Assembly (NCBI GenBank): GCA_030378005.1
Contig: JAUCGF010000073.1
Span: 1-64,000 of the forward strand
Reading direction: 5' to 3'
Length of the DNA: 64,000 nt
DNA from: Desulfococcaceae bacterium HSG9
Lineage (GTDB): Bacteria > Desulfobacterota > Desulfobacteria > Desulfobacterales > JAUCGF01
Translations under genes and position numbers: made by a program
Notes under the pieces: model-generated
Database searches by the model: none
What the model was told of the DNA's origin: nothing
What the model saw: the letters and a program-made list of their open reading frames with translations, nothing else
Part shown: positions 17,369 to 48,224 of the stretch, piece after piece
Numbering within the stretch: position 1 is the first letter of the stretch
How the letters are laid out: every line of letters starts with the position of its first letter

Positions 17369-17466
17369 TGGCGGAAGTGCATGGGAATCGAACCCACCCG
17401 AGACGGTTCTAGCGCCTCACACCGGATTTGAAGTCCGGGAGCCTCACCAGTAAGCTGCGCACTTCC
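17369..17466 (-). tRNA. selC: tRNA-Sec (selenocysteine, anticodon TCA)
   Basis: Read on the minus strand from 17466, the acceptor GGAAGTGC pairs with GCACTTCC over eight base pairs, followed by discriminator G and an encoded CCA. The anticodon arm CCGGACTTCAAATCCGG gives loop CTTCAAA with anticodon TCA. A long variable arm and a GGGTTCGATTCCC T-arm follow. The total of about 98 bases, the 8-bp acceptor and the long variable arm are diagnostic of bacterial selenocysteine tRNA. It implies that UGA is decoded as Sec in this organism and supports the selenoprotein call at 40307-41110. Confidence 0.96.
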
Positions 17467-40057: not shown

Positions 40058-40121
40058 GAGCTGGAGCTGGAAAAACAGGTAAGTTATCTAATCACTGTTC
40101 CTTAAAACGTGTAACCGATAA

Positions 40122-40281
40122 GGGAAGTTACAGAAAATAAACTACGCATATTGTGCAGGATTCAGGTCCGTATTCAAGGCGTGATGAAGTGTGCATATCG
40201 GGGGATATGTGCGCTTTATCGCAACGAAGAAGACTGGCCGAAAGACAAATAAGATACGTAGTTTATTTATTGTGACTTCCC
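40122..40281. mobile_element. 160-bp MITE-like element with ~26-bp terminal inverted repeats and TA/TAA target duplication
   Basis: The ends read AGGGAAGTTACAG...AAACTACG on the left and the complement of AGGGAAGTCACAA...AAACTACG on the right, matching at 23 of 26 positions when one flanking A/T is counted. It is flanked by TAA at 40119-40121 and 40282-40284. The neighbouring duplicate (39991-40010) reads straight through with a single TAA, showing the unfilled site. There is no coding capacity. The TA-type duplication suggests mobilisation by an IS630/Tc1-mariner-type transposase (inference). It sits in the leader of the rhodanese gene. Confidence 0.82.
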
Positions 40282-40306
40282 TAAGCATCATTCAGAAGGA
40301 GAAAAA

Positions 40307-41110
40307 ATGAAAAAGATTATTGTTTTTATGATTATATTGACAGGGCTGTTGAGCACAACTGTATCAGCAATGGAAAGATTTGATGTTGTGACGACAGTAC
40401 AAATCAAGCAGATGCTGGATGACAGGGCTGCCGGCAAAATCGAATTTGTTCTGGTCAATACGCTTGATGAGATTATTTTCAGGCATTCGTCGATACCGGG
40501 TTCCATCAATGTTCCCTGGTACAAAATTGATAAAAAAGTTCATAAGTTAGGTCCGGATAAAAATCAACAGATCATAACTTACTGTATGGGACACAGGTGA
40601 ATTTTTTCCTACAAGACGGCAGTTGCCCTCAGAAAATCAGGCTATAATAACATTAAAATCTACAACGGCGGACTGAAAGACTGGAAAAATGCGGGGTTTG
40701 CAACAGTGGCGATTGAGCCTCTCCCTGAATATGAACACAAAGAAAAGGTGATTCAGGCCGATACGCTTTTTGAAAAAATCAAACAGGCCGATTCATCGAA
40801 TTGTCTTGATCAAAATAAAGAAGCCATGTTGACAATAATCGACTTTCGGGCTTCTAATTTTGTTGAATCAGGAAGCCCTGTCCATTCTATCAAAACTGAC
40901 TGCAAAATTATAAAATGCTTGCTTGATGATTTCAGCAAACCTGAAGTACGAAGCCGAATTCCTAAGAAGGGGTTGGTTGTTTTGGTCTGTGAAACAGGCA
41001 ACCGCGCTTGGGCAGCCAAACGCTATTTATCACAATATGGGTTTACGAATATCGTCAACCTCAAATTTGGAATGCGAGCATGGATAAAAGCGGGCTATCC
41101 TTTGCAATAG
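40307..41110 (+). CDS. Periplasmic tandem-rhodanese selenoprotein (in-frame TGA at 40598-40600 read as Sec98)
   Basis: One reading frame of 267 residues if TGA 40598-40600 is selenocysteine. A signal peptide comes first (cut near VSA|M, residue ~21). The first rhodanese domain (~25-130) has active loop 'TYCMGHR-U-IFSYKTA', with Cys93 and Sec98, then 'GYNNIKIYNGGLKDWKNAGF'. The second rhodanese domain (~150-267) has active Cys228 in 'VLVCETGNRAWAA'. The residue at the Sec position is commonly Cys in this rhodanese subgroup (C-x4-C, from memory of the family). The frame downstream of TGA has no other stop and keeps conserved rhodanese residues, arguing against decay. A SECIS-like hairpin follows and selC is at 17369. 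Likely moves sulfur or selenium, or does thiol redox chemistry, in the periplasm. Its ribosome site AAGGAG is fine. Confidence 0.85.
40604..40636 (+). promoter_or_regulatory. SECIS-like hairpin just after the Sec codon
   Basis: In RNA terms, UUUUC (40604-40608) pairs with GAAAA (40632-40636) as a lower stem. GGCA (40618-40621) pairs with UGCC (40624-40627), or GGC with GCC leaving loop AGUU. The apical loop starts about 20 bases after the UGA, within the 16-37 base window known for bacterial SECIS elements, and contains GU. Bacterial SECIS sequences are weakly conserved, so geometry is the main support. Confidence 0.55.
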
Positions 41111-41193: not shown

Positions 41194-44100
41194 ATGAAAT
41201 TAAAATCTATAAAAACAAAGCTGTATCAAATTATAGTATTAGTCATATTGCTGCTGCTCGTCAATGTTATGAACTATTATTTAGATAAAATGATAGCTTC
41301 TGATGAATACAAATCAAATCAAATCATCAGACTGGAAAAGACCTTTTCCGGCATTCTTCTACAGGAAGGCTCTTCTTCGTATGACGCATCCCTGCATGGA
41401 GTTATTGCAAATCAATACTCCGTTTTGCGAAGAGAATTTACCGATTTTATTTCAGACACTGAAGATGAGCTTCTGGCTGAACGGACGTATGCTCTTGATA
41501 AAAAATTTGAAATTGATTCAGAATCGGTTTGGTTGAATTATACGGTGAATGATGCGCTGTTTGATTTGATAGAAAGTGTCAGATACATTCATAAACATCA
41601 TGTCGCATATTTTGAAAATCTTTTACGCAGCGAGCGTTTTACGCAGAAAGATGATACAGAAACCGGCTTTCAGAGCAACGATGCCAAATCGGTTCTGGAA
41701 ATAGAAATTATCAAAATTGTCTTCGCCATTCAGAACTCTTTAACGGACATTGTTCATACGTTTTTTACTTTAGACCACAAAGGTTACGATTTATCAGGCG
41801 TGGGTGAGGAGTTTTCCAAAAATATAAAACGTTTTTATGCTTCTGTAAATATGTTTGAAAACCACTCCCTTGATGCTCAAGACGGCATATTGGTAGAAGA
41901 GCTCTTAATAAAAGGAAGAAGTTTTGAAAAATCGTTTTTAGAACTTGTGTCTTATGAAGCAGACAAACGACAGCTTACAAAGAGACTGCAAGACATAAGA
42001 GACAGCCTTTTTAAAACGTTCAAACTTAAATATGAAATATTACAAATTTCAAAGCGACAAAGAGAAACATTTATCCGAAATTTGCAAATCATTGCATCTG
42101 TTTTGACTCTGTTTATAGTTTGCTGGATTATCTTTCTTGGAAAGCAGACAACGAATGATATTTCCAGAACGGTCACGGAGACCAAAAAAATCCAACACGA
42201 TTTATCTTATCAAATAAAAACCGACGCTTCCGTGAATGACGAATTCAAAGTTGTATTTACGACATTAAATTCAATGGCTTATAGAATACATGATAATATG
42301 CGGCAATTGAAACGCGAAATGGATGTTCGCATTCAGGCCGAGCGGGAATCGCGAAAAGCCAGAAAAATGGCTGAAGCCGCCAACCGTGCTAAAAGTGAAT
42401 TTGTCGCTAACATGAGCCATGAAATTCGCACCCCCATGAACGCGATCATCGGATTTACCCATCTTGCTCTGCGTACGAAGCCCACACCCCGTCAGCATGA
42501 CTATTTGAGCAAAATGTTGTCTTCGGCTAACGCTTTGCTTGGAATCATCAACGACATTCTTGATTTTTCCAAAATCGAAGCCGGTAAACTGGACATGGAA
42601 CACACCCGTTTTTTGCTGAAAGATGTCATGGAAAATTTGTCAGCTCTGCTTGGCCCCGTAGCTGAGGAGAAAGGCATCGAAATGGTATTTGACACACACC
42701 CGGATGTGCCTTCGACCCTGATGGGTGACTCCTTGCGACTCGGACAAGTTCTCATCAACTTGACGAACAATGCGATCAAGTTCACGCACACCGGTAAGAT
42801 CGTTATTGTTGCCAAACTGATCGAAATGGATGAAAACCGGGTGAAACTCAGCTTTGCCGTGCGTGATACAGGTATCGGGCTATCTGAAAAACAGATTGCC
42901 GAACTTTTCCAGCCCTTTACTCAGGCGGACACCACCATCACCCGGAAATATGGCGGAACCGGCCTGGGACTGACTATCAGCAAGCGTCTCGTGGAAATGA
43001 TGAGCGGTGACATTTCGGTGACATCCCGGCCCGGAGAAGGAAGCGTGTTTACGTTTACTGCGGAGTTCGAACTGACTGCTGTGACCCAAATAATAAAAAA
43101 AGGGCGCAAACACCCCTTACCGCCTTCGGAACCGATGACCCCGCAGATTGCGATACGAAATGACGCTGACGACTTGGCCAAAATCAAGAACGCCAGCGTG
43201 CTGCTGGTTGAAGATAATGTTATCAATCAGATAGTGGCGACCGAACTTTTGGAACAGGCCGGCATGATCGTAACGATTGCCTCTGACGGAAGGGAAGCGG
43301 TCAAAGTCGTCAATCAGACGCCAATATTCGATCTTGTTTTTATGGACCTGGAGATGCCTGAAATGGACGGTTATGAGGCATCACAGATAATACGCCGGGA
43401 TGGCCGATTTGCGGATATGCCTATCATCGCCATGACCGCTCATGCGATGTCCGGAGTCAGGAAAAAATGCCTGGACGCCGGAATGAACGACCATCTGTCC
43501 AAGCCCATTGACCCCCCGGAACTGATCGCCGCACTGGTCAGATGGATCAAACCGAAAATAAAAGAGACACCGGATCTCAGAAATCGGGTTTTTCCAAAAA
43601 ACCCGATTTCTAAACGACCGATTTCTTCTAACGGTCTCCCGCAACAAATGCCCGATCTTGACATTGACACCGCCTTGAAACGACTGGGAGGCAACCGCAA
43701 GCTTTTGAAAAAGCTTTTAGTCAATTTTGCGGATGACTATTCCGATATTACGGACACACTGCGGAAAGCGCTTGACAAAGGTGACATCGAATATATCCGG
43801 CGCACGGCGCATACAATCAAAGGCGTGGCCGGCAATATCGGTGCGGATAAGCTGTCTGAAGTCGCTGCGGAATTGGAAACCGCATCTGTAAACGGCTTTC
43901 CTGATGATGAAATTATAAATCATTTTGAAACCGTTTTAAACCGGACAACGGCATCAGCCGGCACACTGAAAACCGAGCCGCCAAAAGCGCCGGCGGCTGT
44001 ATCCGATTTATCTCTGAAATCGGATACCGACCGGGAAAAACTGGCCTCTCTGCTGTCCGAATTGGATGGTTATCTTGAACACGGCCAGTTTAAAGCCGCC

Positions 44101-44277
44101 CAATTGATAGATATTTTAAAACCGCTTCTGTCCGGTCCTGATTTCAGAGCGCAGTTGGAACGCCTCGAAGAACATATCGATGACTATAATTTTGACGAAG
44201 CGCGGGAGCCGGTGGCCGAAATTGCCGGGTTGCTGGATATTTCACTCATTACTTCCAAGCGATTGATACGGACATGA
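41194..44277 (+). CDS. Hybrid histidine kinase: periplasmic helical sensor-HAMP-HisKA-HATPase-REC-HPt
   Basis: 1027 residues. Membrane segments at about 8-27 and 292-316 bracket a ~265-residue, mostly helical periplasmic sensor, followed by HAMP. HisKA has His409 ('[15 protein letters not shown]'); ATPase has 'NLTNNAIKF', 'DTGIGL', 'GGTGLGLTI'. One receiver has Asp718 ('[11 protein letters not shown]'); HPt has His873 ('[15 protein letters not shown]'). The linker before HPt contains a family A palindrome read as '[11 protein letters not shown]' (43579-43611). From HisKA to the end it is closely similar to the kinase at 51955. Its stop overlaps an ATG at 44274, and it follows the rhodanese gene by 83 bases, so it might sense a sulfur, selenium or redox signal (guess). 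Confidence 0.94.
43579..43611. repeat. 33-bp palindrome, family A, in frame inside a kinase gene
   Basis: AGAAATCGGGTTTTT, CCA, AAAAACCCGATTTCT: perfect 15-bp arms. It is read in phase as [11 protein letters not shown] in the REC-HPt linker. Length 33 is a multiple of three and every forward and reverse frame through it is open. The kinase at 36514 has no such insert at the same linker. Confidence 0.9.
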
Positions 44278-44318
44278 GAAGAGTGGATGGGATCATCAAT
44301 GAATGGAAGATAAACCAA

Positions 44319-47300
44319 ATGAAAATGCTCTTAAAAATACAAATTTTAATTCTAATAATATCTACAGTTCCATCAACTGTATTTTCCCAGAATAAAAACA
44401 AGCTTCCAGCCCAGCCGAATCATGCTCAGGAGACAAATGGGCAAATTCAACTCACGAAGAAGGAGAGAGTATTTCTTCAATCCCACCCTGTTATCCGCCT
44501 TGGAATTGATGAGACGTGGGAGCCGTATGTCATGAAAGCAGACGGTACATTACGAGGACTTGATGTAGATTTTCTTAACTACATAAATAAAACAACAGGT
44601 GCGAACATTCAATTGGTCATAGGTGAATGGGCGGACATGGTAGAAAAAGCGAAAAAACATGAAATTGATGGGTTGGCTAGCTCGACACCTCGCAAAGAGA
44701 GAGCGCCTTATTTCAACTTTTCTGATGTGTATGTTTCAGACTTTTTCATTATCATTCTTCCTTCTGATAACACTCTGAATATTAACAAATTAGATGATCT
44801 CTCAGGGAAAACGATTGCCATTCAAAGGGAAAATAAAGCCTATGAATCACTTCTTAAGTCATATCCCGAAATCAACATTATAGAAGCAAATTCCGAAATT
44901 GAATCGGCAAGAATGGTGGTGGAAGGAAAGGCGGATGGCAGTCTTAGCAGTGTATCCACATACATTGCAATTCATAAGCATCTTTTGAAAACAATTAAAA
45001 TTGGCTATGTTGTTACTGAAGAATCATTAGATGTCGTGTATTCGATTCGGAAAGACTGGCCTGAATTGAAGTCTATCATTAACAAAAGCCTTGCTTCCAT
45101 GCTACCGGAAATCCGGAACAGCATCTACTTTCGCTGGTTTGGAGTTAAATATCCTGATATGGAAGAAGATAAAAAGCAGACTGTTTTTTCTCCCGAAGAG
45201 AATATATTTTTAAAAGAGCATCCAATTATCCGACTTGGAATAGATGGAACATGGGCACCCCATGTTATAATAGATAAAGATGGAAAATTATCCGGGCATA
45301 CTGTGGATTACTTGAATTACATTAATCGGGCTACAGGTGCCAATGTTCAATTAGTTACAGGCAAGTGGGCTGACATGAAGGAAAAAGCAAGAAAACATGA
45401 AATTGATGGGCTGGCACTAGAAGATCCGTCCGTAGAATCCCATCGTTTTTATAACTTTTCCGATGTATTTATTACGGAGTTTGTTATTGTCGTCACTTCA
45501 GCCAATAATACGATGAATATTAATAAATTAGATGATTTGGCTGGGAAAACGGTCGCTATGCAAGGGGGAAATGGTTTTTATCTTTCGATTCTCCAACCAT
45601 ATCCCGAAATCAACATTATAGAAGCAGATTCCGAATCTGAAGCGGTAAAAATGATGTTGGAAGGGAAAGCTGATGCGTGCCTTTCCGGCACGTCAACATA
45701 CATGTATGTCCATAAAAATTTTTTGCAATCCATTAAAGTTGCATACGTGATAATGGAAAAACCGTTGGATCTGGCATTTGCAGTTCGAAAAGACTTCCCT
45801 GAGCTGATCACAATAATCAACAAAGGCCTTGCTTCCATTACTCCGGAGGAAAGCAACAATCTTTACCTCCGCTGGTTTGGTGTTGAGCAGCCTGATATGG
45901 AAAAAAATAAGAAGGGAATTGTTTTTTCTCCTGAGGAGCGCAATTTTCTTAACGCACATCCGGTTATAAAACTTGCTGTTGATGCTGACTGGCCTCCCTT
46001 TGAATTCATAGATCAGGATGGCAATCATCAGGGTATTGCAGCAGAGTATATTCATCTTCTTGAAAAACAGCTTGGAGTTAAATTTGAAATATCCGAAAGC
46101 AAATCGTGGGCAGAATCTATTGAGAAAGGAAAGCAAGGGCAATTGGATACGTATGGCGCTATCTTAAAAACTTCTCAACGGGAAAAGTATCTGGATTTCA
46201 CACCTCCCTATCTTTCTTTTCCTATGGTCATTGTAACCACCGATAAAGTTACATTTGTTGACGGGATAAAAGATTTGAAAAATAAACCGCTGGCTGTAGT
46301 CGAAGGTTATGCCATTCATGAAATATTGACAGAAGCTGATCCAGACCTTGATATAAACCTTTTCCCCGCCATTTCCGAGGCATTAAAAGCGGTTTCTAAA
46401 AATAAAGCATACGCCTATGTTGGCAATCTGGCCGTTGTAAATCATATTATTAGAAGAGAAGGATTAGCTAACCTGCAAATATCGGGAGAGATACCTCATG
46501 ATTTTGATATATCAATGGCTGTAAGAAAGGGTTTGCCAGAGCTGACAACCAGTATCCAGAAAGTAATGAATTCCATTTCTCAAGAAGAAAAAGATGCCAT
46601 ACTCAACAAATGGATCACTCTCCAATATGCCCAAAAAATTGATTACTCCATAATATGGAAAATTTTTTTTGGTTTCGCAGTGCTTCTACTTGTCATACTT
46701 TACTGGAATCGTAAGTTAGCCATGGCGGTTAAAAAAAGAACAGTGGCAGAAGTAGCGGCAAAACAAGCTGAGGTTCGAGCGATTACCGCAAATCAGGCCA
46801 AAAGCGAATTTTTAGCCAACATGAGCCATGAACTTCGCACTCCCATGAACGCCATCCTCGGATTTTCTCAATTGATCAGTCATGACCAAAACCTTCCACT
46901 TGAACATCGAAAGCATCTTTCCATTATCCGGCGCAGCGGGGAACATCTGTTGACCCTTATCAACGACGTGTTGGATATGTCAAAAATCGAAGCCGGAAGA
47001 ACGACCCTGAATGAGAAAAGATTTGATCTGCATCGCCTGCTGGATGACTTGGAAAATATGCTGGGGTTGCGGGCAGAGAAAAAAGGGCTGTCACTGACTG
47101 TCAGGCATGATTCCGATGTTCCGCAATATGTCAAAACCGATGAAATAAAACTGCGACAGGTTTTGATCAATCTGATCGGAAACGCGATTAAATTTACAGA
47201 ACAAGGCGGCGTAGTTGTGCATATCGCAAAAAATCCGGATCTGCCAGAAGAACCGCAAAATTGTTCGCTTCATTTTGAAATCAAAGACACCGGCCCCGGA

Positions 47301-48224
47301 ATCGCACCGGATGAAATGGATGCCTTGTTTAAAGCCTTTGCTCAAACAAAAACGGGGGAACAAGTCCGAAATGGGACCGGTTTGGGACTTGCCATCAGCC
47401 GCAAGTTTGTTCAACTCATGGGTGGAGAAATTAAGGTGAACAGCGAGATTGGCAAGGGGGCGACATTTATATTTGATATTCTGATTCATGTTGCTGCCGA
47501 CGGAAACAAATCTTCCTTTCCAAGAGCTGCTTCCATAGCTCCCGGGCAGCCCCGGCATAAAATCTTAATCGCAGATGACAATCCGGATAATCGCAAATTC
47601 CTTTTCAAATTACTCGATCCTTACGGATTTGAACTTCGCGAGGCCGCCAACGGAAAAGAAGCGCTTGAAATTTGGCAAGCCTGGCGGCCGGATTTAATCT
47701 GGATGGATATCAAGATGCCGGTGATGGACGGATACGAGGCCGTGAGAACCATACGGAAGATTGAACAAGATAATCCGAATCTCCCCAAAACAGCTATCAT
47801 CGCCCAAACCGCCGGCACATTAAAGGAAGAGCGTAAGTCAGTCCTTGAAGCCGGCTGTGACGATTTTATGAGAAAACCTTTCAGAGTGTCTGATGTCTTC
47901 GAACTGATGCACCGGCATATCGGTGTCCGATTAGTCTATGAGGATGCCGCAATAAACAACGAAAAGCAAGCGGGGCCTGAAACGGACTCCGCACAGACCG
48001 GTTCGGAAGGCTTTTCCGGCATTCCCGATGATCTGCTAAAAAAATTGAAACTGGCCGCCATTGGTACGGATATGGACAGGGTTGACGAGATCATCAATGA
48101 GATACGTGGAATCAGCGAGGAACCAGCTGACAGACTGACCGCACTGGCTGATGATTTTGAATATGGAACCATCGTAAAAATTATCGAAGCAACAGAAACC
48201 GTTAGTGAGGAAAATAATGTTTGA
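44319..48224 (+). CDS. Hybrid histidine kinase with three tandem solute-binding (SBP_bac_3) domains
   Basis: 1301 residues from the ATG at 44319, which gives a proper signal peptide (MKMLLKIQILILIIST...) and has GGAAG nine bases upstream. A coupled ATG at 44274 overlapping the previous stop is the alternative. Three family-3 binding domains are in series, at about 54-277 ('VIRLGIDETWEPYVMK'), 294-525 ('IIRLGIDGTWAPHVII') and 539-767 ('VIKLAVDADWPPFEFID'). They are followed by a membrane helix (~779-797). HisKA has His837 and is followed by an ATPase; the receiver has Asp1130 ('WMDIKMPVMDG') and a ~90-residue C-terminal helical region follows. It probably senses amino-acid-like or other small ligands in the periplasm. 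The first two sensor domains look like recent duplicates; the third is more distant. Confidence 0.93.
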   Translation: MKMLLKIQILILIISTVPSTVFSQNKNKLPAQPNHAQETNGQIQLTKKERVFLQSHPVIRLGIDETWEPYVMKADGTLRGLDVDFLNYINKTTGANIQLVIGEWADMVEKAKKHEIDGLASSTPRKERAPYFNFSDVYVSDFFIIILPSDNTLNINKLDDLSGKTIAIQRENKAYESLLKSYPEINIIEANSEIESARMVVEGKADGSLSSVSTYIAIHKHLLKTIKIGYVVTEESLDVVYSIRKDWPELKSIINKSLASMLPEIRNSIYFRWFGVKYPDMEEDKKQTVFSPEENIFLKEHPIIRLGIDGTWAPHVIIDKDGKLSGHTVDYLNYINRATGANVQLVTGKWADMKEKARKHEIDGLALEDPSVESHRFYNFSDVFITEFVIVVTSANNTMNINKLDDLAGKTVAMQGGNGFYLSILQPYPEINIIEADSESEAVKMMLEGKADACLSGTSTYMYVHKNFLQSIKVAYVIMEKPLDLAFAVRKDFPELITIINKGLASITPEESNNLYLRWFGVEQPDMEKNKKGIVFSPEERNFLNAHPVIKLAVDADWPPFEFIDQDGNHQGIAAEYIHLLEKQLGVKFEISESKSWAESIEKGKQGQLDTYGAILKTSQREKYLDFTPPYLSFPMVIVTTDKVTFVDGIKDLKNKPLAVVEGYAIHEILTEADPDLDINLFPAISEALKAVSKNKAYAYVGNLAVVNHIIRREGLANLQISGEIPHDFDISMAVRKGLPELTTSIQKVMNSISQEEKDAILNKWITLQYAQKIDYSIIWKIFFGFAVLLLVILYWNRKLAMAVKKRTVAEVAAKQAEVRAITANQAKSEFLANMSHELRTPMNAILGFSQLISHDQNLPLEHRKHLSIIRRSGEHLLTLINDVLDMSKIEAGRTTLNEKRFDLHRLLDDLENMLGLRAEKKGLSLTVRHDSDVPQYVKTDEIKLRQVLINLIGNAIKFTEQGGVVVHIAKNPDLPEEPQNCSLHFEIKDTGPGIAPDEMDALFKAFAQTKTGEQVRNGTGLGLAISRKFVQLMGGEIKVNSEIGKGATFIFDILIHVAADGNKSSFPRAASIAPGQPRHKILIADDNPDNRKFLFKLLDPYGFELREAANGKEALEIWQAWRPDLIWMDIKMPVMDGYEAVRTIRKIEQDNPNLPKTAIIAQTAGTLKEERKSVLEAGCDDFMRKPFRVSDVFELMHRHIGVRLVYEDAAINNEKQAGPETDSAQTGSEGFSGIPDDLLKKLKLAAIGTDMDRVDEIINEIRGISEEPADRLTALADDFEYGTIVKIIEATETVSEENNV

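Follow-up and report, generated by a model that had tools for sequence, protein, structure and literature searches.

The window analyzed here, a stretch of 64,000 nucleotides from Desulfococcaceae bacterium HSG9, contains a gene for a rhodanese whose reading frame is one of 267 codons with a lone in-frame TGA at codon 98 (Table 1). When TGA is translated as selenocysteine (Sec, U), the frame stays open for a further 169 codons, to a TAG stop codon at 41108-41110. The Pfam Rhodanese family (PF00581) matches the product in two stretches (E=3e-22; 79.4 bits vs a gathering cut-off of 22.2), and its structure model (pLDDT 86) finds rhodaneses in Foldseek. The N terminus, MKKIIVFMIILTGLLSTTVSA, resembles a signal peptide by eye. 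The TGA takes the second position of a C-x4-U pair in the active loop of the first domain (Y-C93-M-G-H-R-U98; YCMGHRU). The active-site position of domain 2 is occupied by Cys228 in the window, by T or S in most orthologues and mostly by D in other relatives. As judged from these residues, domain 2 is probably not catalytic, and since it mostly lacks a catalytic residue, the Cys/Sec pair of domain 1 is the likely reactive site. The description given by the first-pass annotation, a secreted tandem-rhodanese selenoprotein, is upheld by the conserved TGA, the Cys at its column in relatives, the selA, selB, selC, and selD genes, and the covarying SECIS-like hairpin, all described below. Directly upstream of the rhodanese start is a MITE-like element with 32-nt inverted repeats (40119-40285), which may influence the rhodanese promoter; five more copies at 89-94% identity, plus weaker ones, are found elsewhere in the genome.

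Table 1. Features of the selenorhodanese locus and of selC in the window.
Feature	Coordinates	Strand	Basis
selC, selenocysteine tRNA	17369..17466	-	ARAGORN, Rfam
Shine-Dalgarno-like AGGAG	40297..40301	+	sequence
CDS, predicted secreted two-domain rhodanese selenoprotein, 267 residues with Sec98	40307..41110	+	translation with TGA=U, Pfam
Putative signal peptide, residues 1-21, TVSA end	40307..40369	+	by eye; model shows helix 2-18
Rhodanese domain 1, bears C93-x4-U98 active loop	40382..40708	+	Pfam, structure model
Catalytic-position Cys93 codon, TGT in window, TGA in 5/14 orthologues	40583..40585	+	alignment
In-frame TGA = Sec98, TGA in 14/14 orthologues	40598..40600	+	translation, alignment
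SECIS-like hairpin, loop AGUU at 40621-40624	40615..40630	+	covariation across orthologues; weak in window
Rhodanese domain 2, Cys228 at active-site position	40742..41101	+	alignment, structure model
Hybrid histidine kinase, 1027 aa, TM - extracytoplasmic domain - TM - HisKA - HATPase - REC - Hpt	41194..44277	+	ORF, Pfam
All-helical extracytoplasmic domain of kinase, possibly HBM-like by structure, no Pfam domain	41281..42078	+	alignment, model

A search of the genome contigs with the single sequence returned no orthologues, and an alignment-based search returned six loci. The full set of 14 orthologues (the window gene and those at L006, L041, L037, L046, L042, L044, L065, L067, L068, L070, L071, L072, and L116) is 40-54% identical over full length, spans several families and reaches beyond the order; its sources include Desulfatibacillum alkenivorans, Desulfosarcina alkanivorans, and a Desulfobulbaceae MAG. 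TGA fills the Sec98 column in every member, and two of the 14 are interrupted elsewhere, by a frameshift (L046) and by a TAA (L070). More distant two- and three-domain rhodaneses have either TGA or Cys in this column, with Cys in L011, L017, L018, L025, L029, L032, L125, L127, and L131. Both occur in a three-domain paralogue encoded by the HSG9 genome (G000:C42, locus L039 5772-6930), as TGA in its first domain (FYCQGPTU) and as Cys in its second (FYCGGYKC). These relatives bear out the earlier proposal that Sec98 sits in the Cys column of a C-x4-C pair. The selC gene named in the first-pass annotation was recovered by both ARAGORN and Rfam, and selA, selB, and selD, which had been listed there as genes to look for, all occur in the same genome, each above its curated NCBI cut-off. 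The selD gene (G000:C162:19726-20652) has an in-frame TGA and so probably encodes a selenoprotein itself.

A search for a SECIS element directly after the TGA had also been listed there as a check. In the orthologues a hairpin begins 15 nt past the UGA (15-30 nt), with AGUU or GGUC, i.e., a GU, in its loop. Across 13 orthologues 93% of cells pair and 11 cells are double-changed, a count reached in 0 of 500 shuffles, and sliding the partner by 1-3 columns leaves a far lower pairing signal. Codons +7 and +8 show perfect covariation at their wobble bases, A-U in eight orthologues and G-C in five. At 14 sites of more distant relatives, ten double-changed cells were counted, again matched by none of 500 shuffles. 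The hairpin occurs in TGA versions and has mostly disappeared from relatives with Cys. Folding at the Sec98 column in 53 distinct sites gave means of -8.7 kcal/mol for TGA (n=29) vs -3.5 for Cys (n=24; Mann-Whitney p=4e-8), and in the three-domain class alone -9.8 (n=6) vs -3.6 kcal/mol (n=18; p=0.001), both p-values being optimistic because the sites share descent. The same holds within the three-domain paralogue of G000:C42, where the hairpin is strong in the Sec copy only (-11.3 vs -3.4 kcal/mol). A codon-identity test on the hairpin region was only mildly raised (0.55 vs 0.41), for which reason covariation was used instead. Folded alone, the window hairpin has three closed pairs beside a mismatch (z=+0.5) and is among the weakest of the set. 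Such an element is thus borne out by covariation across the orthologues and is weak in the window sequence itself; on this comparative support the hairpin, with its position soon after the UGA and its G/U apical loop, qualifies as a putative SECIS element.

The presence of TGA in all 14 orthologues and in distant relatives, together with protein conservation on both flanks, indicates that the codon is not there by chance, and the window gene is almost certainly a genuine selenoprotein gene in which UGA98 is read as selenocysteine. It is scarcely credible that the TGA is a true stop codon, marks a decayed gene or stems from faulty assembly: standard gene callers would end the window gene there, and the window's own hairpin is weak, but the identical TGA recurs in all 14 orthologues and in more distant ones, the domain that follows it is conserved, selA, selB, selC, and selD are all present, and the hairpin covaries. 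A lesion was accordingly dropped as an explanation, being ruled out by the conservation.

In five of the 14 orthologues (L037, L046, L070, L072, and L116) the codon of the catalytic-position Cys is also TGA, giving a U-x4-U loop. Placed on a 13-member tree, this character needs four changes, at least three of which are forced by well supported branches. Cys and Sec have replaced each other several times at the catalytic position, which makes for natural comparisons of what Sec adds. An extra hairpin overlapping the second UGA folds at -3.3 to -6.1 kcal/mol in the four U-x4-U members compared; in C-x4-U members the same hairpin is generally weaker, mostly -0.2 to -0.4 kcal/mol with three exceptions. 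It is suggestive that this hairpin could serve the first UGA of the U-x4-U members.

In all 14 orthologues the next gene 3' of the rhodanese, on the same strand, encodes a histidine kinase. The first-pass annotation had regarded adjacency to a sensor kinase as unusual; this is overturned, the pair being the rule rather than an oddity. The spacing in most runs from an 11-nt overlap to ~40 nt, the genes often overlapping or lying 1-4 nt apart; the gap is 83 nt in the window, and in L046 it reaches ~270-290 nt. Common to the kinases is a membrane-anchored extracytoplasmic domain at the N terminus, ~270 residues long, with the motifs YIHxHHxxY and SLDAQDGxLxEELL, which no Pfam family recognizes and which the L116 kinase matches by profile (prob 98.6). 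The modules that follow it vary among HK-REC-Hpt, HK-REC, and PAS-HK-REC. Across the order (389 genomes), the rhodanese scores above 200 bits in 12 genomes (next best 107) and the sensor domain above 200 bits in 13, with 12 in common; the exception, G093, has a sensor-domain kinase and no rhodanese in the 464 nt upstream, which is all that its contig holds there. A distant partial kinase in G638 also has no rhodanese beside it. The distance matrices of rhodanese and kinase correlate (Mantel r=0.80, p=2e-4) and the supported clades of the two trees agree, as is seen in genes that are inherited together. The CxxCH motif, a possible c-type heme site, occurs in the N-terminal domain of the kinases of L035, L044, L065, L069, and L075 but not in that of some others. 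In the window, the kinase is followed by another hybrid kinase gene (44274-48224), whose product has three SBP_bac_3 stretches and whose start overlaps the stop of the first.

The AlphaFold model of the sensor domain is all-helical (pLDDT 81, pTM 0.61). A sequence search of the PDB with this domain found nothing convincing. Against the same database Foldseek gave McpS, TorS, TorS-TorT complexes (3o1h, 3i9w), and PilJ as best matches (E only ~1e-3, prob 1.00), and the leading matches are nearly all of one sensor kind, the helical bimodular sensors. The TorS kinase listens through a periplasmic protein, TorT. The likeness to the window pair is that of a soluble, predicted periplasmic protein beside a hybrid kinase whose sensor-domain model weakly matches TorS and TorS-TorT complexes. 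TorT, however, is a ligand binder of the periplasmic-binding-protein type, whereas the window partner is a presumably redox-active selenorhodanese; since its fold is that of a rhodanese, it may act in the way TorT does without being a TorT.

The association extends to the wider two-domain clade, most of whose members are selenoproteins. We read the regions of 14 evaluable more distant two-domain relatives, counting the near-identical L118 and L119 once; one further locus is incomplete. Ten of the 14 loci directly adjoin a gene for a membrane signaling protein. The neighbor is a kinase at L117, L120, L122, and L132 (the call at L132 resting on sensor-domain similarity), a SpoIIE-type PP2C phosphatase at L118/L119, a chemoreceptor at L121, L125, L127, and L131, and a Tll0287-HAMP protein at L123, while L124, L128, L129, and L130 have no signaling neighbor. 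The sensor domain of the phosphatase is 33-40% identical to those of the kinases of L120 and L122 and 40-44% identical to that of L132; the sensor domains of the four chemoreceptors form a separate family. At L121 (2858-8522) the selenorhodanese lies between CheA and the chemoreceptor in a che operon that also has CheW. In an automated control with a range of ±1.5 kb, HK or MCP genes were found near 15 of 29 two-domain loci vs 1 of 23 other rhodanese loci (p=2e-4), where the 29 include some genes fetched twice, the 23 come mostly from related genomes of the same order, and the HK and MCP profiles were built partly from the counted neighbors, most of which Pfam confirms.

Comparison with described rhodaneses shows both likenesses and disparities. 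TsoB, the rhodanese/DsbD-fusion selenoprotein (NF045694), has a rhodanese domain with the same Cys/Sec spacing, and its U-x4-U is identical to that of the five orthologues named above. TsoB, however, is a 572-position DsbD-like fusion in a three-selenoprotein operon, whereas the window protein lacks a DsbD portion and is partnered by kinases; it matches NF045694 in the rhodanese region only (46.5 bits, cut-off 805) and is not a member. Nor is it a member of NF041203 (rhodanese_LYCAU; 56.8 bits, cut-off 115), the form 3 rhodanese-like selenoprotein, whose motif is CxU rather than C-x4-U. It falls below every NCBIfam cut-off; members of both alignments match the same NCBIfam families, the cut-offs being those for the first member only. 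The best solved relative by sequence and by fold is the Francisella two-domain rhodanese 6mxv, whose loop lacks a second Cys/Sec (the alignment has a gap there). ArsR-rhodanese regulators likewise place a rhodanese domain in a regulatory setting but are cytoplasmic fusions to a DNA-binding domain and have no Sec; a plasmid search returned only distant rhodaneses, among them ArsR-annotated proteins that match domain 1.

As the first-pass annotation had stated, rhodanese selenoproteins were reported earlier (PMC1088965, PMC2398784, PMC13188914). At least five forms are listed, the one with U-x4-U being TsoB, and forms 1-4 have PF00581 with Sec like the window protein, with no signaling partner mentioned (PMC13188914). 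Form 1 (reference WP_010941598.1) is given as UxxS and the window shows U-I-F-S, a likeness of the short motif alone. One survey lists, without detail, a putative histidine-kinase selenoprotein (PMC8318568). In the open-access literature, which leaves most subscription papers outside, we came across nothing that ties a selenoprotein to either a sensor kinase or a chemoreceptor, and so while rhodanese selenoproteins are known, their linkage to signal transduction appears to be new.

The regularity with which the relatives adjoin membrane sensor proteins makes it probable that the rhodanese forms the external half of a sensor for sulfur or redox conditions. We consider it reasonably probable that it acts, in the manner of TorT, as a periplasmic sensor subunit that detects sulfane sulfur or the redox state through its Cys/Sec pair. 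In such a scheme, the secreted protein would present Cys93 and Sec98 as a pair in the active loop of its first domain and serve the downstream membrane histidine kinase as its soluble sensory subunit, as TorT does for TorS. The Cys/Sec or Sec/Sec pair would react with periplasmic polysulfide, sulfane sulfur, thiosulfate or an oxidant and toggle between a reduced state and a selenenylsulfide or per-sulfurated one; domain 2 would help docking on the helical extracytoplasmic domain of the kinase and thereby alter kinase output. In the wider clade, the response of the pair would set the output of a kinase, a chemoreceptor or a phosphatase. The broader statement, that secreted two-domain rhodaneses, mostly C-x4-U or U-x4-U selenoproteins, are extracytoplasmic sensory subunits of kinases, chemoreceptors, and PP2C phosphatases in the Desulfobacterota, with Sec as the residue that reads the signal (probably sulfane sulfur or redox), is one we favor by a little. 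The first-pass suggestion of thiol redox or of selenium or sulfur transfer by the pair keeps its placement on the active loop, while the kinase pairing points to sensing and away from mere thiol redox or sulfur transfer.

Gene neighborhood fits both a sensor subunit and an enzyme whose gene the kinase controls and cannot tell the two apart. That the rhodanese is an ordinary periplasmic enzyme, a sulfurtransferase or thiol/selenol oxidoreductase regulated by a neighboring kinase that senses something else, is a less likely alternative, in keeping with the rhodanese fold and intact domain 1 active loop, the family members that have no signaling neighbor, and the C-x4-U and U-x4-U loops that TsoB and other presumed redox enzymes have (PMC13188914). 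Against this reading, the conserved partner is a specific sensor domain and not just any kinase, one sensor domain is retained though the output switches from kinase to PP2C phosphatase, chemoreceptors are also partners though they have no direct control of transcription, and the modeled sensor fold appears similar to the TorS domain on which TorT docks. It is rather improbable that the UGA itself is a selenium sensor, with scarce selenium causing a stop at UGA98 and translational coupling then lowering expression of the overlapping kinase gene. In several genomes the stop and start codons overlap or are at most 4 nt apart, and a second UGA has been gained or lost repeatedly, as would suit such a mechanism, but the plain-Cys relatives of L125, L127, and L131 still have chemoreceptor partners, the window has its 83-nt gap, and the signaling gene is upstream in L123 and L125. 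A role in delivery, in which the protein would carry per-selenide or persulfide to SelD or to tRNA modification, is very improbable: rhodaneses bind persulfide and Sec would suit selenium transfer, but the protein is predicted to be secreted while Sec synthesis is cytoplasmic, and the neighborhood lends no support, there being in most genomes signaling partners and no directly adjoining selenium-metabolism genes.

Most selenoproteins whose function is known are redox enzymes, and a conserved pairing of selenoprotein and sensor would, if true, be a new use of selenocysteine. The rhodanese-kinase pair is a testable candidate for extracellular sulfur or redox sensing in sulfate-reducing and related bacteria, and gene callers that end at the UGA conceal the presumed partner through which a number of kinases and chemoreceptors would sense.
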